Assembly: GCF_036237315.1 (NCBI RefSeq)
Contig: NZ_CP108356.1
Span: forward strand, 434,001 to 498,000
DNA from: Streptomyces sp. NBC_01351
GTDB lineage: Bacteria; Actinomycetota; Actinomycetes; Streptomycetales; Streptomycetaceae
Length of the DNA: 64,000 bases
Direction: 5' to 3'
The position numbers and the translations under genes were made by a program. Positions 6,496 through 32,501 of the stretch are shown one piece after another; positions within the stretch are counted from its first letter, which is position 1; the number at the start of each line of letters is the position of its first letter. The notes under the pieces were generated by a model, which saw only the letters and a program-made list of their open reading frames with translations, was not told where the DNA came from and searched no databases.

Positions 6496-8043
6496 ATGTA
6501 CTTTCCCGCCTCGCCGGCCGAAGAGGCCGTCGCCGCCGAGCTGGACGGCGTCCGCCCCGACCTCGCCGCCGCGTACGCCGGCTCGCTGCACGGCGCCCGG
6601 GCGGCCGTGCTGACCCGGCTGTGGCGGGCGTTGGCCTTCGAGCCGCTGCCGTGGGTGGTGGACCGGGAGCGGGGGCCGGGCGGGCTGGTGCTGCTGCTGG
6701 ACGGCGGCGGGCGGCTGGAGGGCCCGGCGCCGGATCCGTACGCGACCGGGCCGTACGTGGCCGAGCTGCTGCTCGACGGCCGGGCGTACGGGCAGGCAGC
6801 GCGCCTGGTGGCGGCGCTCGGGGTGCCGCACGGGGACGGGTTCGCCGCCGAGCTGGACGGCAGTACGGCCAACCTCGCGCTCTCCCGGGCCGGTCAGCCG
6901 CCCGCCGCGCAGGACACAGCAGGACAGGACGCGGCCGGGCAGGATTCCGCCGCGCGAAGCACCTGGGAGTGGGAGCAGCGGATCGTGGACGGGCATCCGT
7001 ACCACCCGAACTGCCGCTCCCGGCCCGGCTTCTCGGTGGCCGAGCAGCTGGCGTACGCGCCCGAGCACCGGCCGGTGGTGGAGCTCGGGCTGGTCGCCCT
7101 ACGGGCCGAGGAGTGCCTGGTCACCGGGGGCTGGCCGGAGGAACTGCGGGACGGGGGGCGGGTCCTGGTCCCGGTGCACCCGTGGCAGGCGGCGCACACC
7201 CTCAAGCACGAGCCGGTGCGGGCGGGTTTCGCGGCGCATCCGCTGATGGCCCTGCGGACACTGGCACCCGCCGCCGGCGGAGCGCACGTGAAGACGGCGC
7301 TGAGCACCCGTCTGACCTCCTCCGTCCGCGACATCTCCGTCTACTCCATCGAGACGGCGGCGGCCGTCTCCGCCTTCGCCGAGACCCTCGCGGAGCGGCT
7401 CGACGGGCGGCTGCACATCACGCGCACCCTCGGCGCGGCGACCGCGTACAGCCCCGACCTCGCGGCGGTGCTGCGGGAGCCGCCCGAGGTGTACGCGGAC
7501 ACCGCGGCCGGTGAACGGGTGCTCCCGGTGGCCTCGCTCGCCGGGCTCCCCGAGGCGCGCTCGGCGGCCTGGCGCGCCGCCTTCGCCCGCCTCGCGCTCT
7601 CGGTGTGCCTTCGCGTGCTGGACCTGGGGGTGGCGCTGGAGGCGCACGGCCAGAACCTCCTCGTCGTCCTCTCCGCCTCGGGGAGCCCGCTCCGGCTGGT
7701 CTACCGGGACCTCGCCGACATCCGCATCAGCCCGGCACGGCTGGCCCGACACGGGCTTCCGGTGCCTCCGCTGTCCGGCCGGCTGATCACCGACGACGTG
7801 ACCGTGCTGCGGCGCAAGCTGTTCGGGTCCCTGGTGGCGGGGGCGCTCGGGGCCACGGCGGGCTCGGCCGGCGCCCTGCGCGAGGACCTCGCCGCGGCAT
7901 CCCCGGCCCTGCCGGCCACGGCCGACACCGAGGCCCTGCTGACCGGGCCGCTGCCGACCAAGGCGCTCACCCTGATGCGGCTGAGCCCCGGTGTACCCGG
8001 TGATCAGTGGGCGGACCTGCCCCAGCCGTCGGCCGTTCATTGA
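6496..8043 (+). CDS. IucA/IucC family NIS siderophore synthetase, divergent paralogue
   Basis: This second NIS synthetase has 515 residues and the same fold signatures: GHPYHPNCRSRPGF, LVPVHPWQ, MALRTLAPA, HVKTALSTRLTSSVR and EAHGQNLLV followed by YRDLADIRIS. Compared with its neighbour and the family, the phosphate-contacting Ser of the S-x-R-T motif is Ala here (ALRT), and the Lys of HPxxKxR is Arg. The following Arg/Thr, Lys and Arg residues are kept. Paired NIS synthetases usually act one after the other on the two ends of a citrate or dicarboxylate scaffold. The changes suggest altered kinetics or substrate, or a partly non-catalytic role. The methyltransferase gene starts 44 bp downstream and may be co-transcribed. 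Confidence 0.9.
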   Translation: MYFPASPAEEAVAAELDGVRPDLAAAYAGSLHGARAAVLTRLWRALAFEPLPWVVDRERGPGGLVLLLDGGGRLEGPAPDPYATGPYVAELLLDGRAYGQAARLVAALGVPHGDGFAAELDGSTANLALSRAGQPPAAQDTAGQDAAGQDSAARSTWEWEQRIVDGHPYHPNCRSRPGFSVAEQLAYAPEHRPVVELGLVALRAEECLVTGGWPEELRDGGRVLVPVHPWQAAHTLKHEPVRAGFAAHPLMALRTLAPAAGGAHVKTALSTRLTSSVRDISVYSIETAAAVSAFAETLAERLDGRLHITRTLGAATAYSPDLAAVLREPPEVYADTAAGERVLPVASLAGLPEARSAAWRAAFARLALSVCLRVLDLGVALEAHGQNLLVVLSASGSPLRLVYRDLADIRISPARLARHGLPVPPLSGRLITDDVTVLRRKLFGSLVAGALGATAGSAGALREDLAAASPALPATADTEALLTGPLPTKALTLMRLSPGVPGDQWADLPQPSAVH

Positions 8044-27269: not shown

Positions 27270-27611
27270 TCAGGCGGAGGCGTGGTGGTGGTCGAGCTCC
27301 CACGCGTGGTGCTTGAACTCGTGGCGGAAGTCGGCGTGGTCCTCCCACTGGCGGGCGATGCCGCGCAGGACGTCCCAGTTGTGCTCCACCGACTGGTCGA
27401 TGACGCGGCGCATGGCCGGGTCGGCCGACTCGCGCTTCTCCAGCAGGCCCTTGATCGCGGAGGCCTCCAGGACGGCGTTGCGCAGCGCCCGCAGCGCGCG
27501 GCCGGTGTCGTCCATGGAGAATCCGTACTCGCTCCCCGTCTCCGCGTCGAACAGCGGGGTGAGCCGCGCTTCGATGAACGCGGTGATCCGCTCGAAGTGC
27601 TGCACATCCAT
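27270..27611 (-). CDS. Small hypothetical protein, possibly DUF6221-like
   Basis: A 113-residue acidic, helical protein. The N-terminal FIEARLTPLFDAETGSE and C-terminal RQWEDHADFRHEFKHHAWEL resemble actinobacterial DUF6221 proteins, but the match is from memory and loose. The C-terminus is His-rich (HHAWELDHHHASA). ATG 27611 is preferred over an upstream frame extension at 27653. It stands in a divergent position to the sigma-factor fusion at 27776, 164 bp away. Function is unknown. Confidence 0.65.
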   Translation of the reverse strand: MDVQHFERITAFIEARLTPLFDAETGSEYGFSMDDTGRALRALRNAVLEASAIKGLLEKRESADPAMRRVIDQSVEHNWDVLRGIARQWEDHADFRHEFKHHAWELDHHHASA

Positions 27612-27775
27612 CAGGGGCTCCGTCTCTTGCCCGGCCACCCTTCGACCCGGCATTTCGCTCGCTTCGGCTGTTCGGCGCCATTATGCCGGGCGTCACCGGA
27701 CCGGCCGGATCGGCGGTCGACGGTATGCCGGTGATCTATTTTGATGATCGGCAGCCGACAAGGGGGACGAGACAG

Positions 27776-29173
27776 GTGGACGAGAGTTCAGAGCTGACCG
27801 AGCGCTTCTTGGAGCACCGCTCTCATCTGAGAGCGGTGGCCTACCGGATGCTCGGTTCACTCAGCGAGGCCGAAGACGCCGTCCAGGAAGCCTGGTTGCG
27901 TCTGGACCGCTCCGACACCAGTGAGGTCGAGAACCTCGGCGGCTGGCTGACCACGGTCGTGGCGCGGGTGTGCCTGAACATGCTGCGCAGCCGCGAGACC
28001 CGGCGCGAGGAGTCCATCGAGGCGTACGCGACCGACCCGGCGGCGGGCCGCGAGGACGGGGTGGATCCCGAGCAGGAGGCGGTGCTGGCCGACTCGGTCG
28101 GGCTGGCGCTGCTCGTCGTACTCGACAAGCTCGCGCCGGCCGAGCGGCTGGCGTTCGTCCTGCACGACATGTTCTCCGTGTCCTTCGACGAGATCGCCCC
28201 GATGCTCGACAAGACCCCGGCCGCGACCCGGCAGCTCGCCAGCCGCGCCCGGCGCCGGGTCAAGGGCGTGCCGCTGGTGCCCGACGCCGATCTGACCCGT
28301 CAACGCGTCGTCGTGGACGCCTTCCTGGCCGCCACCCGTGGCGGGAACTTCGACGCGCTGGTCACCCTGCTCCACCCCGATGTGGTGCTCACCGCCGACA
28401 AGGCCGTCATTCCCTCCCCCGCCGCCATCACCATCAGCGGCGCCGTCACCGTGGCCACGGGCGCGATGGCCGCCATGCAGCGGGCCCAGGGCACTCAGAG
28501 CGCGCTGGTCAACGGCATGGTCGGCCTCGCGATGGCTCCGCTCGGACAGCTGGTCCTGGTGCTCCGCTTCACCGTGGAGGACGATCTGATCACCGCGATC
28601 GACGTGGTCGCGGAGCCGGAGCGGCTGGGCGAGCTCGACATCGCCGTCCTCGACGATGTGCGGCGCGTCATCGTGGTGATGGGCGTGGCCGGCACGGGCA
28701 AGACGACCGTGGGCCGGCTGCTCGCGGAGGCGCTCGGCGTTCCGTACGCGGAGGGCGACGCCTTCCACCCGGCGGCCAACGTGGCCAAGATGTCCGCCGG
28801 GACCCCGCTCGACGACGCGGACCGGTGGCCGTGGCTCGACTCCATCGGCGAGTGGATCCGCGACAGCGCGCGGCTGCACGGCGGAGTGGTGGCGGCGTCG
28901 TCGCTCAAGCGCGTCTACCGCGACCGGCTGCGCGCCGCGGCACCGGGGACGGTGTTCGTGCACCTCACCGGTGAGCGCCCGTTGGTCGAGGAGCGGATGG
29001 CGGCGCGCAGGAGCCACTTCATGCCCCCGACCCTGCTGGATTCGCAGTTCGCCACCCTGGAACCGCTCGGGGCGGACGAACTCGGCGTCGTCGTCGACGT
29101 GTCCGCATCCCCGGAGGACATCACCGGTGCGGCGCTGACGGCCCTGGGTCAGCTCCGCACCACCGAGGACTGA
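27776..29173 (+). CDS. ECF sigma factor (ECF41/SigJ-like, SnoaL domain) fused to gluconokinase
   Basis: A single open frame encodes two usually separate proteins. Residues about 8-75 are sigma region 2 (LRAVAYRMLGSLSEAEDAVQ) and 110-165 are region 4 (LAPAERLAFVLHDMF, ATRQLASRARRRVKG). Residues 178-285 are the SnoaL-like domain of ECF41 factors; where that family usually has DGGGK, LTADKAVIPSP is found. Residues about 300-465 are a GntK-type gluconokinase: P-loop GVAGTGKTTVG, GDAFHPAANVAKMSAG, LDDADRWPWLD and HFMPPTLLDSQF. The kinase would phosphorylate gluconate to 6-phosphogluconate. GTG 27776 follows AGGGGG; a longer start at 27683 is possible. No stop or frameshift separates the halves. 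Coupling of gluconate metabolism to transcription is inferred. Confidence 0.88.
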   Translation: MDESSELTERFLEHRSHLRAVAYRMLGSLSEAEDAVQEAWLRLDRSDTSEVENLGGWLTTVVARVCLNMLRSRETRREESIEAYATDPAAGREDGVDPEQEAVLADSVGLALLVVLDKLAPAERLAFVLHDMFSVSFDEIAPMLDKTPAATRQLASRARRRVKGVPLVPDADLTRQRVVVDAFLAATRGGNFDALVTLLHPDVVLTADKAVIPSPAAITISGAVTVATGAMAAMQRAQGTQSALVNGMVGLAMAPLGQLVLVLRFTVEDDLITAIDVVAEPERLGELDIAVLDDVRRVIVVMGVAGTGKTTVGRLLAEALGVPYAEGDAFHPAANVAKMSAGTPLDDADRWPWLDSIGEWIRDSARLHGGVVAASSLKRVYRDRLRAAAPGTVFVHLTGERPLVEERMAARRSHFMPPTLLDSQFATLEPLGADELGVVVDVSASPEDITGAALTALGQLRTTED

Positions 29174-29206
29174 GGGAACCGGTTCGGGGTCGCCGTACCG
29201 CTGCTG

Positions 29207-30265
29207 TCACGCGTCCTGTAGCTGCGCGGCGGCGAGGGCGAGGCCGACGGCCGCCGTCCCGCAGCGGTCGGCGAGGGTCGCGACCTCCGTGCGCATGCCG
29301 TCGGTCTCCGGGCCGTGCCATCCCGGCGCGGCCACCGCCGCGCGCAGCCGGACGGCGTGCGATCGCAGCGCGGCGGCGTGCTCGCACAGGCCGGGCCGGC
29401 CTTCGGGCACCGGACGTGGGGCCCGACGGGGCAGCGGCCCGGTGGCTCGGCGGCGGGCGAGGGCGGGCTGCCGGGCGGGGGCGGGCCGGGCGGCGCGGGC
29501 AGGCCGTACGGCGGGAGCAGGCCGTACGGCGGGAGCAGGCCGGAGGCCGGGGGCCGGAGCGGGGTGCCCGGTGGGCCGTTCCGGCAGGCCCTGGCCCCGG
29601 TCGCAGAAGGCCCAGAACGCGGCGCCGAGTCCGAGGAGCGGTTCGGCGGCCTGGGCCCGCCCCGTGGCGACCTGCCAGCCGGCGTGGTCGTTGAAAGGGT
29701 TCGCGTCGGTCAGGGCGTTCCAGGCGAGGATGTCCGCGAAGTACGGGGAGAGCAGCGCGAAGGCGTGCTCCGCTCCCCGGTCGCGCATGATGTGCCGGAA
29801 CAGCCGGACGGCCTCGGCCTGCCGGCCCTCCCCGACCGCCGCGAGGACGGCCGCCGCCCCCGGGTCGGCGAGGAGTTCGGGACGGGCCGCGCCCGCGCTC
29901 CGGATCCGGGCCCTGAGCCCGCAGACGGCGATGCTGATCGCGAGGCTCTCCCGGCCGGCCAGGATTCCGGCGAGCCGGCCCGCCCGGGCGGCGCCCCGTC
30001 CGCGCGGCGCCCAGCCGAGGCCCGCCGGGTCGGTGAGGGTGCGCAGCAGGGTGCGCCAGCCGAGCCGGTGGCGCCCTCCCCTGGCGAGCGCGGCGGCGGG
30101 GAGCCGGGGGCCGAGTGCCAGTGCGGAGGCGTGCCGGGCGGCCTCGCCGACCGCGTCGGCGGCTTCGGCGAGCGCGCGGCACAGGGCGTCGAGCAGGTCT
30201 GCGTCCCGGTCGGGGGAGGTCGGGTACGACGAGGACGCGGAGGACGCGGTCACGGCGTCGGGCAT
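29207..30265 (-). CDS. Hypothetical protein with Pro/Ala/Arg repeat segment
   Basis: A 352-residue protein not recognised from any family. Residues 20-225 are Ala-rich and helical (LDALCRALAEAADAVGEAAR, SPYFADILAWNALTDANPFN). Residues about 230-285 are a low-complexity PAPAVRPAPAVRPAR repeat encoded by tandem 18-bp DNA units. A C-terminal helical part (about 290-352, GRPGLCEHAAALRSHAVRLR) follows, with the spacing of a helical-hairpin or WXG100-like segment (PGWHGPE), though this is not certain. It lies 78 bp downstream of the unusual P450, in the same direction, and may form an operon with it and the pseudo-beta-lactamase. Confidence 0.6.
   Translation of the reverse strand: MPDAVTASSASSSYPTSPDRDADLLDALCRALAEAADAVGEAARHASALALGPRLPAAALARGGRHRLGWRTLLRTLTDPAGLGWAPRGRGAARAGRLAGILAGRESLAISIAVCGLRARIRSAGAARPELLADPGAAAVLAAVGEGRQAEAVRLFRHIMRDRGAEHAFALLSPYFADILAWNALTDANPFNDHAGWQVATGRAQAAEPLLGLGAAFWAFCDRGQGLPERPTGHPAPAPGLRPAPAVRPAPAVRPARAARPAPARQPALARRRATGPLPRRAPRPVPEGRPGLCEHAAALRSHAVRLRAAVAAPGWHGPETDGMRTEVATLADRCGTAAVGLALAAAQLQDA
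29500..29535. repeat. Tandem 18-bp repeat inside coding sequence
   Basis: Two identical copies of GCAGGCCGTACGGCGGGA (29500-29517 and 29518-29535) are followed by a partial third copy. They encode the PAPAVR repeat of the hypothetical protein on the minus strand and keep the frame, so copy number could vary without disrupting the protein. Confidence 0.85.
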
Positions 30266-30343: not shown

Positions 30344-31645
30344 TCAGCGGCGGGTGAGGGTGATCCGGATGGCGCCCGGGTCGAGGGTGGCGGGGAGTGG
30401 TCCCACCGGGTCCAGCACCGGCCGGGCGGCCGCGAGGCGGTGGCCCCGGAGCACCTCGGCGCAGAACGCCGCGGTGATCATCAGTCCGAGCTGGTCGCCC
30501 GGGCAGCGGCCGTCGCCATGGCTGAACGGGGCGATCCGGACGTCCCGGTCGGCGTCGGGGTTCTTCCACCGGCCCGGTACGAACACGTGCGCCGCCGGTA
30601 CCCGTTCGGGATCGCGCTGGTGGAACGCGGCGGGCAGCAGCACGGCGGTGCCCGCCGGGTAGCGCACCCCCCGCCACTCCGTCGGGGTGCGGGTGACGCG
30701 GATCAGGTCGGGCACCACGGGGTACAGGCGCAGGGATTCCCGTACGCAGGCCCGCAGTCGGGGCAGTTCACCACCGGCCCCGCCCCGGGCGGCTTCCGCG
30801 GCGGCCGCGTCCTGTTCCGCGGGGTGCGCGCCGAGCAGGAGCAGGGTGCGCAGCACGGTGCCCGGGACGGCGTCCATGGCGAGCAGCCAGTGGTGGGCCT
30901 GGCGCAGGGGGTCCAGGGCCCCGGAGGGGGCGGCCCGGCTGGTGGCCCGGCCGACGAGGGTGTTTCCGTCGGCGTGGGCGGCGTACTCCTGGATGCGGGC
31001 GAGGGCCTTGCCGTACACGGTGCGGGCGGTTCGGGCCCGGCCGCCGCGCAGTTGCCGGAGCCAGCCGGCGAGTTCCTCGTCGGAAGCGGCGGCGTCGCCG
31101 AGCACGATCCGGCGGGCGGCGCGGTGCACGGCGTGGCGGGCGCGTACGAGGTCGAGGGTGCGGGTGGCCGTCAGGTGCGGGGCCTCTTCGGCGACGGCCG
31201 CCAGGAAGGTGGCCCCCGAGGGGTGCACGGGGGTGCCCGCGGCCAGCGCCTCTTCGTTGATCCGGCGCCGCTGGGCGCGCAGTTCGCCGCGGGCGCAGCC
31301 GGTGCCGGCGGGTTCAGCGAGGCCGAGGCCGCGGCACTTCTCCGGCGGGTCGGCCGCGAGGAGGCTCACGGGTTCGGCGTAGAAGCGGTGGAGGTCCGGC
31401 GGGTCGAGGAGGACGAGGAAGGTCCGGCCCGACCGGGTCCTTACGAGGACGGGGGCGTCGCCTCGGCGGGCCCGCAGGGCGCTCAGTGCGGCGGCGGAGG
31501 CGCGTGGTGTGCCCGTGCGGACGAAGTCGCGCAGGCGGGCGCCGAAGGTGGGGGCGGCGGGTGTCCGCCGGTCGGGAGCTTCCGCGCCGAGGGCCCGTAC
31601 GCGGGCTCGGAGCCCGTCGAGGGCGGCCCCTTGGACCGTACGCAT
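30344..31645 (-). CDS. Cytochrome P450 with atypical I-helix
   Basis: A 433-residue P450-fold protein. The K-helix ExxR is in RACVRESLRLYPVVP and the haem loop is PFSHGDGRCPGDQLGLM with the axial Cys retained. The I-helix region, WLLAMDAVPGTVLRTLLLLG, lacks the usual G-x-(D/E)-T-T oxygen-activation motif, as in P450s that use peroxide or catalyse isomerisation or dehydration rather than hydroxylation. ATG 31645 is the likely start; longer in-frame sequence upstream is a shadow of the next gene. It sits 46 bp behind the pseudo-beta-lactamase and 78 bp ahead of the repeat protein. The substrate is unknown. Confidence 0.85.
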   Translation of the reverse strand: MRTVQGAALDGLRARVRALGAEAPDRRTPAAPTFGARLRDFVRTGTPRASAAALSALRARRGDAPVLVRTRSGRTFLVLLDPPDLHRFYAEPVSLLAADPPEKCRGLGLAEPAGTGCARGELRAQRRRINEEALAAGTPVHPSGATFLAAVAEEAPHLTATRTLDLVRARHAVHRAARRIVLGDAAASDEELAGWLRQLRGGRARTARTVYGKALARIQEYAAHADGNTLVGRATSRAAPSGALDPLRQAHHWLLAMDAVPGTVLRTLLLLGAHPAEQDAAAAEAARGGAGGELPRLRACVRESLRLYPVVPDLIRVTRTPTEWRGVRYPAGTAVLLPAAFHQRDPERVPAAHVFVPGRWKNPDADRDVRIAPFSHGDGRCPGDQLGLMITAAFCAEVLRGHRLAAARPVLDPVGPLPATLDPGAIRITLTRR

Positions 31646-31691
31646 GCGTGTACCTCCGCAGCCGGGACAACGACGGTCGGTGACATCGGCA

Positions 31692-32501
31692 TCACCGTAC
31701 GTCGCACCCGGGGAGTCCGCGAGCGCCGGTCCGCGCGAACACGGCCTCGCGGAAGGCGGAGCGCAGGGGCCGCGGCCCGGCGGGCGTCGGGAGGAGCATC
31801 GCCCACCGGTGGTACCGGGGCGAGATCCACAGGGCCTGGCCGTGGTCCGCCGGGGCGGGGTGGGTCCAGACGCCGTGGGGGGCCGGGTGCCAGAGGAGGC
31901 CGCGGGCGGGCGCGAGTTCGCCCGTGCGGATGCGGAGGGACTCGGCGGTCCAGGCGCGGGTGATGGCCGCCCCGCCCTCCGGTGTCGGCGCCGGGGCCGG
32001 CGAGAGGAGGTGGCGCAGGAAGCGGACGAGGTCGGCCGGGGGTGCGTACAGGGTGCCGTCGGCGAGCCGGGTGCCGGCCATGCCGAGCGGGCGCCAGATC
32101 CGGGTGGCCGCGAGCTCGCCGAGGGCGCTCCCGGAGAGGTGCTCGGCGAGCCGGGTGAGGGCGGCGGTTCCGCCGGGGTGGGTGAGGAGGTGGTGGACGG
32201 TGGTCCCGGCGGGGGCGTCCGTGTCCCCGTAGGCCGCAAGGGGGGTGTGCAGCCGCAGCGCGCCCTCCTCGACGAGGCTCCCGACGACCGGCCAGAGGGC
32301 CAGTACCCCGAGGAGTCCGCCGACGTCGACGGGCTCCTCGGGGTCGGGGTCGGCATCGGCATCGCGGTTTCCGCCGCCGCCGTCGGCGTGGTGCGAGCCC
32401 GCGTGAACGCCGTCGGCGTCGCCGACCGCCCACACCGCCCCGGGGTCGGCGGCCGCCACGAGAGCCCGGATGTCATCGGCCTGGTCGCTCAGGAGCGTCA
32501 T
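31692..32501 (-). CDS. Beta-lactamase/serine-hydrolase-fold protein lacking the SxxK motif
   Basis: A 269-residue protein that reads as a class C beta-lactamase-like (DUF/ester hydrolase) fold in its middle and end: LVEEGALRLHTPLAAY, VHHLLTHPGGTAAL, LAATRIWRPLGMAGTRLADG and YAPPADLVRFL. Where active members have the catalytic SxxK (as in GSVTK), the sequence instead reads an acid- and Gly-rich stretch, DADADPDPEEPVDVGGLLG, with no Ser/Lys pair. It is also shorter than the usual 350 or more residues. It is therefore probably not a hydrolase and may have a binding role. It is divergent from the MFS exporter and heads the minus-strand operon with the atypical P450. Confidence 0.7.
   Translation of the reverse strand: MTLLSDQADDIRALVAAADPGAVWAVGDADGVHAGSHHADGGGGNRDADADPDPEEPVDVGGLLGVLALWPVVGSLVEEGALRLHTPLAAYGDTDAPAGTTVHHLLTHPGGTAALTRLAEHLSGSALGELAATRIWRPLGMAGTRLADGTLYAPPADLVRFLRHLLSPAPAPTPEGGAAITRAWTAESLRIRTGELAPARGLLWHPAPHGVWTHPAPADHGQALWISPRYHRWAMLLPTPAGPRPLRSAFREAVFARTGARGLPGCDVR

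Follow-up and report, generated by a model that had tools for sequence, protein, structure and literature searches.

A sigma factor and a gluconokinase in one frame of Streptomyces sp. NBC_01351: a probable deletion-born fusion from a dismantled gluconate operon

In Streptomyces sp. NBC_01351, one reading frame encodes a sigma factor and, directly behind it, a gluconokinase. This frame lies in a stretch of 64,000 nucleotides (434,001-498,000) of contig NZ_CP108356.1, analysed as a whole and called the window here, and it raises the question of whether a single polypeptide links gluconate phosphorylation to transcription, with the kinase sensing gluconate or ATP and gating the sigma factor, as proposed in a first-pass annotation, or whether the two genes have come together for a more ordinary reason. 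The second answer is strongly favoured: the protein would be a deletion-born fusion, made while a gluconate (gnt) operon was being dismantled, and not an evolved gluconate/ATP switch.

Translation of 27776-29173 (+) gives a single open frame of 465 residues with its sole stop at the end. The start, GTG 27776, agrees with that of separate orthologues (e.g., P0003, beginning MDES), and a second in-frame start candidate, ATG 27683, lies upstream. Residues 1-293 make up a complete SigJ/ECF41-like sigma factor (Pfam, NCBIfam, structure alignment), and from about residue 295 a complete GntK-type gluconokinase follows (Pfam, NCBIfam, PDB relatives). Thus, the description of one uninterrupted frame with sigma regions 2 and 4 is borne out by 465 codons and by matches to PF04542 and PF08281. 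The features of the frame are the following.

27776-29173 (+): fused frame, sigma factor plus gluconokinase; start picked by match to separate orthologues
27812-27997 (+): sigma-70 region 2, residues 13-74 (PF04542, E 2.1e-13)
28106-28258 (+): sigma-70 region 4, residues 111-161 (PF08281, E 5.6e-9)
28313-28630 (+): SnoaL-like C-terminal extension of SigJ/ECF41 type, about residues 180-285 (alignment with 5xe7)
28650-28663 (+): joint, from the sigma end (...LD) to the gntK start (RVIVVMG...), placed by eye against the sigma 3' and gntK 5' DNA of relatives
28658-29170 (+): GntK-type gluconokinase domain, residues 295-465 (TIGR01313; PDB 4eun, 3t61, 1knq)
28682-28705 (+): P-loop GVAGTGKT, residues 303-310 (20-sequence alignment)

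The best solved relative of the sigma half is a SigJ of known structure, 5xe7, which aligns with residues 10-282, and on this alignment the SnoaL-like regulatory domain read in the first-pass annotation holds, though Pfam sees it weakly (SnoaL_2, E 0.017, below cut-off). A SigJ-type model of NCBIfam spans residues 5-288 at 247.9 bits, under its curated cut-off of 271. The AF2 model, whose alignment contained sigma homologues only, has a mean pLDDT of 60.1, with the sigma and SnoaL parts mostly above 70 except about residues 71-120 and blocks of 73-92 in the SnoaL-like part; the kinase, without alignment rows, stays below 50, and the model is uninformative on contact between the halves.

The first-pass annotation names DGGGK as the usual motif of the SnoaL domain; a search in the text of PMC3426412 did not bring it up. 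The window has ADKAV at this position, so the motif is indeed changed as had been noted, and the same position reads ADKAV in five of seven separate relatives, ADAAV in L132 and ADRAV in L133. The change is, on these alignments, a trait of this sigma clade and not of the fusion. No COE gene was recognised beside the sigma gene; what adjoins it are genes for a bestrophin-like protein, for a protein that Pfam does not match and for the kinase. In the table of PMC3426412, 34% of ECF41 genes stand alone. The promoter TGTCACA-N16-CGTC has no exact match in the window with spacers of 13-19. For want of DGGGK, of a COE gene next to it and of an exact promoter match, the protein has been filed as SigJ/ECF41-like and not as a strict ECF41. 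With SigJ/ECF41 factors it shares sigma regions 2 and 4 and a SnoaL-like extension; it differs in the ADKAV or variant motif of its clade, in lacking a COE neighbour and in carrying a kinase in the same frame.

For the second half, TIGR01313 (gluconokinase) scores 176 bits over residues 299-450 against a cut-off of 113.75. All eight P-loop positions are invariant or nearly so in 20 aligned sequences including the window's, and other conserved gluconokinase columns of that alignment are also kept. By family model and conserved columns it is a GntK/IdnK-type gluconokinase with predicted activity, and the reading of a complete kinase with intact motifs stands.

Neither half departs from its relatives in rate. 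Mean dN/dS by the Nei-Gojobori method, which is rough at this G+C, is 0.32 for kinase pairs that include the window and 0.29 for other pairs, and 0.33 and 0.31 for the sigma half, the window pairs being slightly higher in both. The kinase set comprised the window and 11 of 35 relatives, with relative pairs of dS <=0.3 excluded (37 of 55 kept), and the L133 sigma sequence was kept in the sigma alignment despite an internal deletion. Relative-rate comparisons with the nearest proteins among the matches listed gave none of 28 below p 0.05, the lowest being 0.052. Such ordinary rates argue against decay of either half, but they do not date the fusion. Since motifs are kept and rates are ordinary, each half probably remains able to fold and function by itself.

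Other proteins of this architecture were looked for among protein records and in genomes. In a whole-protein search, in which 8000 candidates were scored and the best 120 listed, the 119 besides the own protein were sigma factors of 270-311 aa without fusion. A search with residues 290-465 admitted proteins of 256-814 aa, thus excluding free gluconokinases, and among the best 120 of 517 matches (a few rows being without Pfam entry) a sigma domain appeared in the Pfam column of the own protein only. In collections of 295, 395 and 392 genomes with overlapping membership, a full-length match occurred, among the matches listed (those ranking highest), only in the own genome; in 393 genomes around another centre, the own one not being listed, no top match extends past residue 299. 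Neither this draw of genomes nor one more yielded a closer sigma or kinase relative than the search of 295 genomes had. One apparent match to residues 1-398, in Rhizobium locus L057, was rejected as a fusion on finding an ordinary sigma stop.

The sigma stop was also located across loci. The set consisted of those loci, out of 127, with a sigma match of E <= 1e-60, two copies of the own fusion being left out; it keeps duplicates between collections and may include an own-genome paralogue. In all 110 other sigma loci measured in this way, the stop falls <=15 codons from residue 294. Orthologues with the same architecture, which the first-pass annotation suggested looking for, were thus not found, and separate genes throughout had been named beforehand as the outcome that would count against its proposal. 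This result speaks against a conserved family and not against this single fused frame. The sigma-gluconokinase architecture is unique in the data examined, to one genome, and the statement that no protein of this type has been described agrees with the literature and protein searches, in which none was found. Separately, the sigma orthologue P0041 (Streptomyces sp. NC-S4) extends about 17 residues beyond the usual stop, a second sign that the sigma stop would occasionally be lost.

Gluconokinases with partners other than sigma factors do occur among the matches listed. From their Pfam numbers, we take these partners to be GH3, Lrp/AsnC, aldose epimerase, DinB, G6PDH and permease domains. Among these listed proteins (P0128-P0240), many Arthrobacter-like gluconokinase domains share the protein with a GH3 (beta-N-acetylhexosaminidase) domain, and Lrp/AsnC, DinB, G6PDH or permease partners are single cases. 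The window's protein resembles them in placing a GntK domain and an unrelated domain in one protein, and it differs by its sigma domain, absent from the Pfam column of the other 119 of the best 120 of 517, a few of which have no Pfam entry.

The origin of the frame can be read by comparison with the same locus in relatives, for which 11 stretches around the best sigma relatives, plus L019, were used; the nearest genome compared at DNA level is about 80% identical in the sigma and kinase proteins. Six relatives (L019, L128, L129, L131, L132, L133) have a separate sigma gene (+), a gntR-type gene (-) and gntK (+), in the same order, with 0.9-2.3 kb from sigma stop to gluconokinase; in L128, the sigma stop is at 6800 and the gap is about 875 bases. 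The intervening gene of L128 encodes a GntR/FCD regulator (Pfam), its counterparts in L019, L129, L131 and L132 are close copies, and that of L133 is assigned from its size and position only; an additional frame lies in the gap of L019, L131 and L132. In all of the six but L019, gntK is followed by gntP (+). This gene encodes 465 aa in the five, being a GntP permease by Pfam in L128, recognised by sequence as a close copy of it in L129, L131 and L132, and assigned by size, place and 3' end in L133. Beyond gntP, these relatives carry homologues of one or both genes that follow the fused frame in the window.

This ancestral order is seen in five of the 11 stretches, L019 being the sixth case, and the other six of the 11 have no gntK beside the sigma gene: in L130 the kinase is elsewhere, some 8 kb farther along that contig, and in L134-L138 the sigma factor is 70-72% identical and lies in other surroundings without a kinase match. 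The L133 sigma orthologue (L133:6048-6905) lacks about 23 residues inside region 4 and may be broken. Among strains represented by proteins, Streptomyces sp. NPDC059874 has a separate sigma factor, P0003, which at 89% is the nearest, and a separate kinase, P0244, which at 87% is among the nearest, and P0004 (sigma) and P0248 (kinase) are likewise separate proteins of NPDC091371. P0248 has a C-terminal LSLVL, as in the GntP C-terminus, which suggests that NPDC091371 may also have lost gntP, by a deletion running into gntK.

Set against these relatives, the window has no gntR gene, no gntR/gntK divergent promoter region and no gntP. What surrounds the fused frame is the following.

27270-27653 (-): conserved upstream neighbour, divergent from the sigma gene, no Pfam match; synteny marker
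29194-29222 (+): scar, last codons of deleted gntP with stop TAG at 29219-29221; matches gntP 3' ends of relatives
29207-30265 (-): conserved downstream neighbour, no Pfam match; synteny marker
30344-31645 (-): P450-like gene, part of a 710-aa frame (30344-32476) aligning with relatives; synteny marker

At the joint, the sigma codons to ...GTCCTCGAC pass directly into the kinase ...CGCGTCATCGTGGTGATGGGC. Sigma homology reaches residue 293 and kinase homology resumes at about 296, with no non-coding remainder between them and almost no linker between the halves. About ten bases can be assigned to neither side, and the breakpoint is known only to that range; GTG 28658-28660 may be the former gntK start. 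Because third-position G+C stays at 0.95 and 0.97 in two 40-codon windows across the joint, there is no sign of a frameshift.

The other trace is the 29-base scar, which matches the gntP 3' end of five relatives with a score unreached in 1000 shuffles for four of them and reached once for L132. About half of it lies within the last part of the convergent gene 29207-30265, and this overlap would explain its survival. In the P450-like frame further on (30344-32476, -), relatives align only to the last 433-463 residues, and the first part of these 710 residues may be non-coding.

Relatives thus keep the parental genes apart and in this order; the intervening DNA is absent here. It is proposed that the ancestor had sigma (+), gntR (-), gntK (+) and usually then gntP (+), all separate; that loss of gntR and of the gntR/gntK intergenic region would have put sigma codon 293 in frame with the first gntK codons; and that a separate loss of gntP would have left the 29-base scar. 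A deletion origin is well supported, within the limit that for the closest strains (NPDC059874, with 89% identity in the sigma factor) the comparison covers proteins alone.

The layout that was lost is known from another species. In S. coelicolor, the gnt operon is SCO1678 gntR-SCO1679 gntK-SCO1680 gntP, with one promoter between gntR and gntK as the target of repression by GntR (PMC5425828). The window has the same kind of kinase, and its relatives keep the divergent gntR and gntK-gntP layout of that operon; the window itself differs in having neither gntR nor gntP and in having gntK joined to a sigma gene. Kaul et al. (2026 preprint, PMC12803068) present deletion-born fusions as a general way in which bacteria gain new genes, and here, as there, a deletion puts two formerly separate genes in one frame. 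Two cases given there from the M. tuberculosis complex lost the catalytic motifs of their parents, whereas here both parents are complete.

The remainder of the genome agrees with such dismantling. The relatives' GntP protein has no match in a protein search of it, and the GntP family has none either, as against matches in seven of 14 control genomes. A close GntR is likewise not found in it, the best relative of the lost GntR being 37% identical. A second gluconokinase, 46% identical to the window kinase, is present, and it is itself fused to an aldose 1-epimerase domain (L139:5740-7350, near 8017178-8017678). The gluconate operon is dismantled in this genome, and the fused kinase would thus probably not be essential.

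These losses also bear on whether an indel introduced at the joint during sequencing or assembly has merged two adjacent genes. The occurrence of the fusion in one genome only would fit such an error, as would a second protein record that puts a separate kinase there. A base error, however, cannot explain why gntP and a close gntR are found nowhere in the genome, and homology passes from 293 to about 296 without a non-coding remainder. Since two operon genes are not found in the whole genome, the artefact has been set aside as highly improbable.

The same protein record speaks for another possibility, that two proteins come from one frame, the kinase being also, or only, made from an internal start (GTG 28658 or ATG 28679); the fused frame would then be of little importance. 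The protein database holds a 164-aa kinase from the internal ATG (P0241) beside the 465-aa P0002, apparently from the same place, and 164-aa kinase entries from the same ATG exist in other strains too (P0244, P0272, P0311). Database sources seem to disagree on the kinase start. Against this, no Shine-Dalgarno-like stretch was found by eye ahead of 28658 or 28679, the GAGG leader that precedes the GTG start of the relatives' gntK is missing in the window (by eye), a start at 28679 would remove most of the first beta-strand of the kinase, and the sigma frame has no stop ahead of the kinase. Internal initiation is consequently given a small chance. Under the favoured deletion origin, the kinase is now probably translated as the tail of the sigma factor, and, being left without repressor, promoter region and ribosome-binding site, most likely only as such.

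There remains the proposal with which the locus was introduced. E. coli GntK forms dimers, and the same is expected of the GntK half. A fusion kept by selection, in which binding of gluconate or ATP acts on the sigma factor by way of this dimer-forming half, is rated as very improbable; were it true, one deletion would have turned a metabolic enzyme into a sigma-factor signal domain in a single step. Should the fusion be old, however, the ordinary rates of the two halves would point to a fused protein kept for some use, which would count against the favoured explanation.

A bifunctional regulator that has evolved so that the kinase, on binding gluconate or ATP, controls the sigma factor would be consistent with the kept motifs and the lack of decay in either half, and also with what is described for ECF41-type sigma factors. 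These are controlled by their own C-terminal domain (PMC3426412; review PMC8999054): in two species, activity rose about 20-fold and 120-fold when the domain was trimmed (PMC3426412), and its complete removal abolished activity (PMC3426412; PMC8999054). As activity is set by that domain, a kinase joined directly behind it might alter sigma activity. Nevertheless, the architecture is found in one genome only among the data examined, the halves have almost no linker, the origin is accounted for by deletion, and the own genome has no GntP-family permease that could be found. An evolved regulator is thus judged to have hardly any probability, and the idea of a gluconate- or ATP-sensing kinase that gates the sigma factor finds no backing in a protein of one genome, with the genes separate in every relative examined and a deletion at a locus without gntR and gntP. 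A regulatory role of the fusion is possible but unlikely; if the deletion origin is right, any effect on the sigma factor, through kinase-driven dimerisation or a disturbed inhibitory SnoaL domain, would be a side effect only.

In sum, the protein seems to have arisen incidentally, while a gene cluster for gluconate use decayed, and not as an evolved sensor. The explanation is ordinary but instructive, and a conserved regulatory protein has not been seen in the data examined. It offers a clean natural case of a deletion that joins the gene of a transcription factor to that of a metabolic enzyme and leaves both parents complete, with the ancestral order visible in relatives and the scar of a second lost gene remaining, and it may be used to test if such fusions are short-lived or able to gain a regulatory role.
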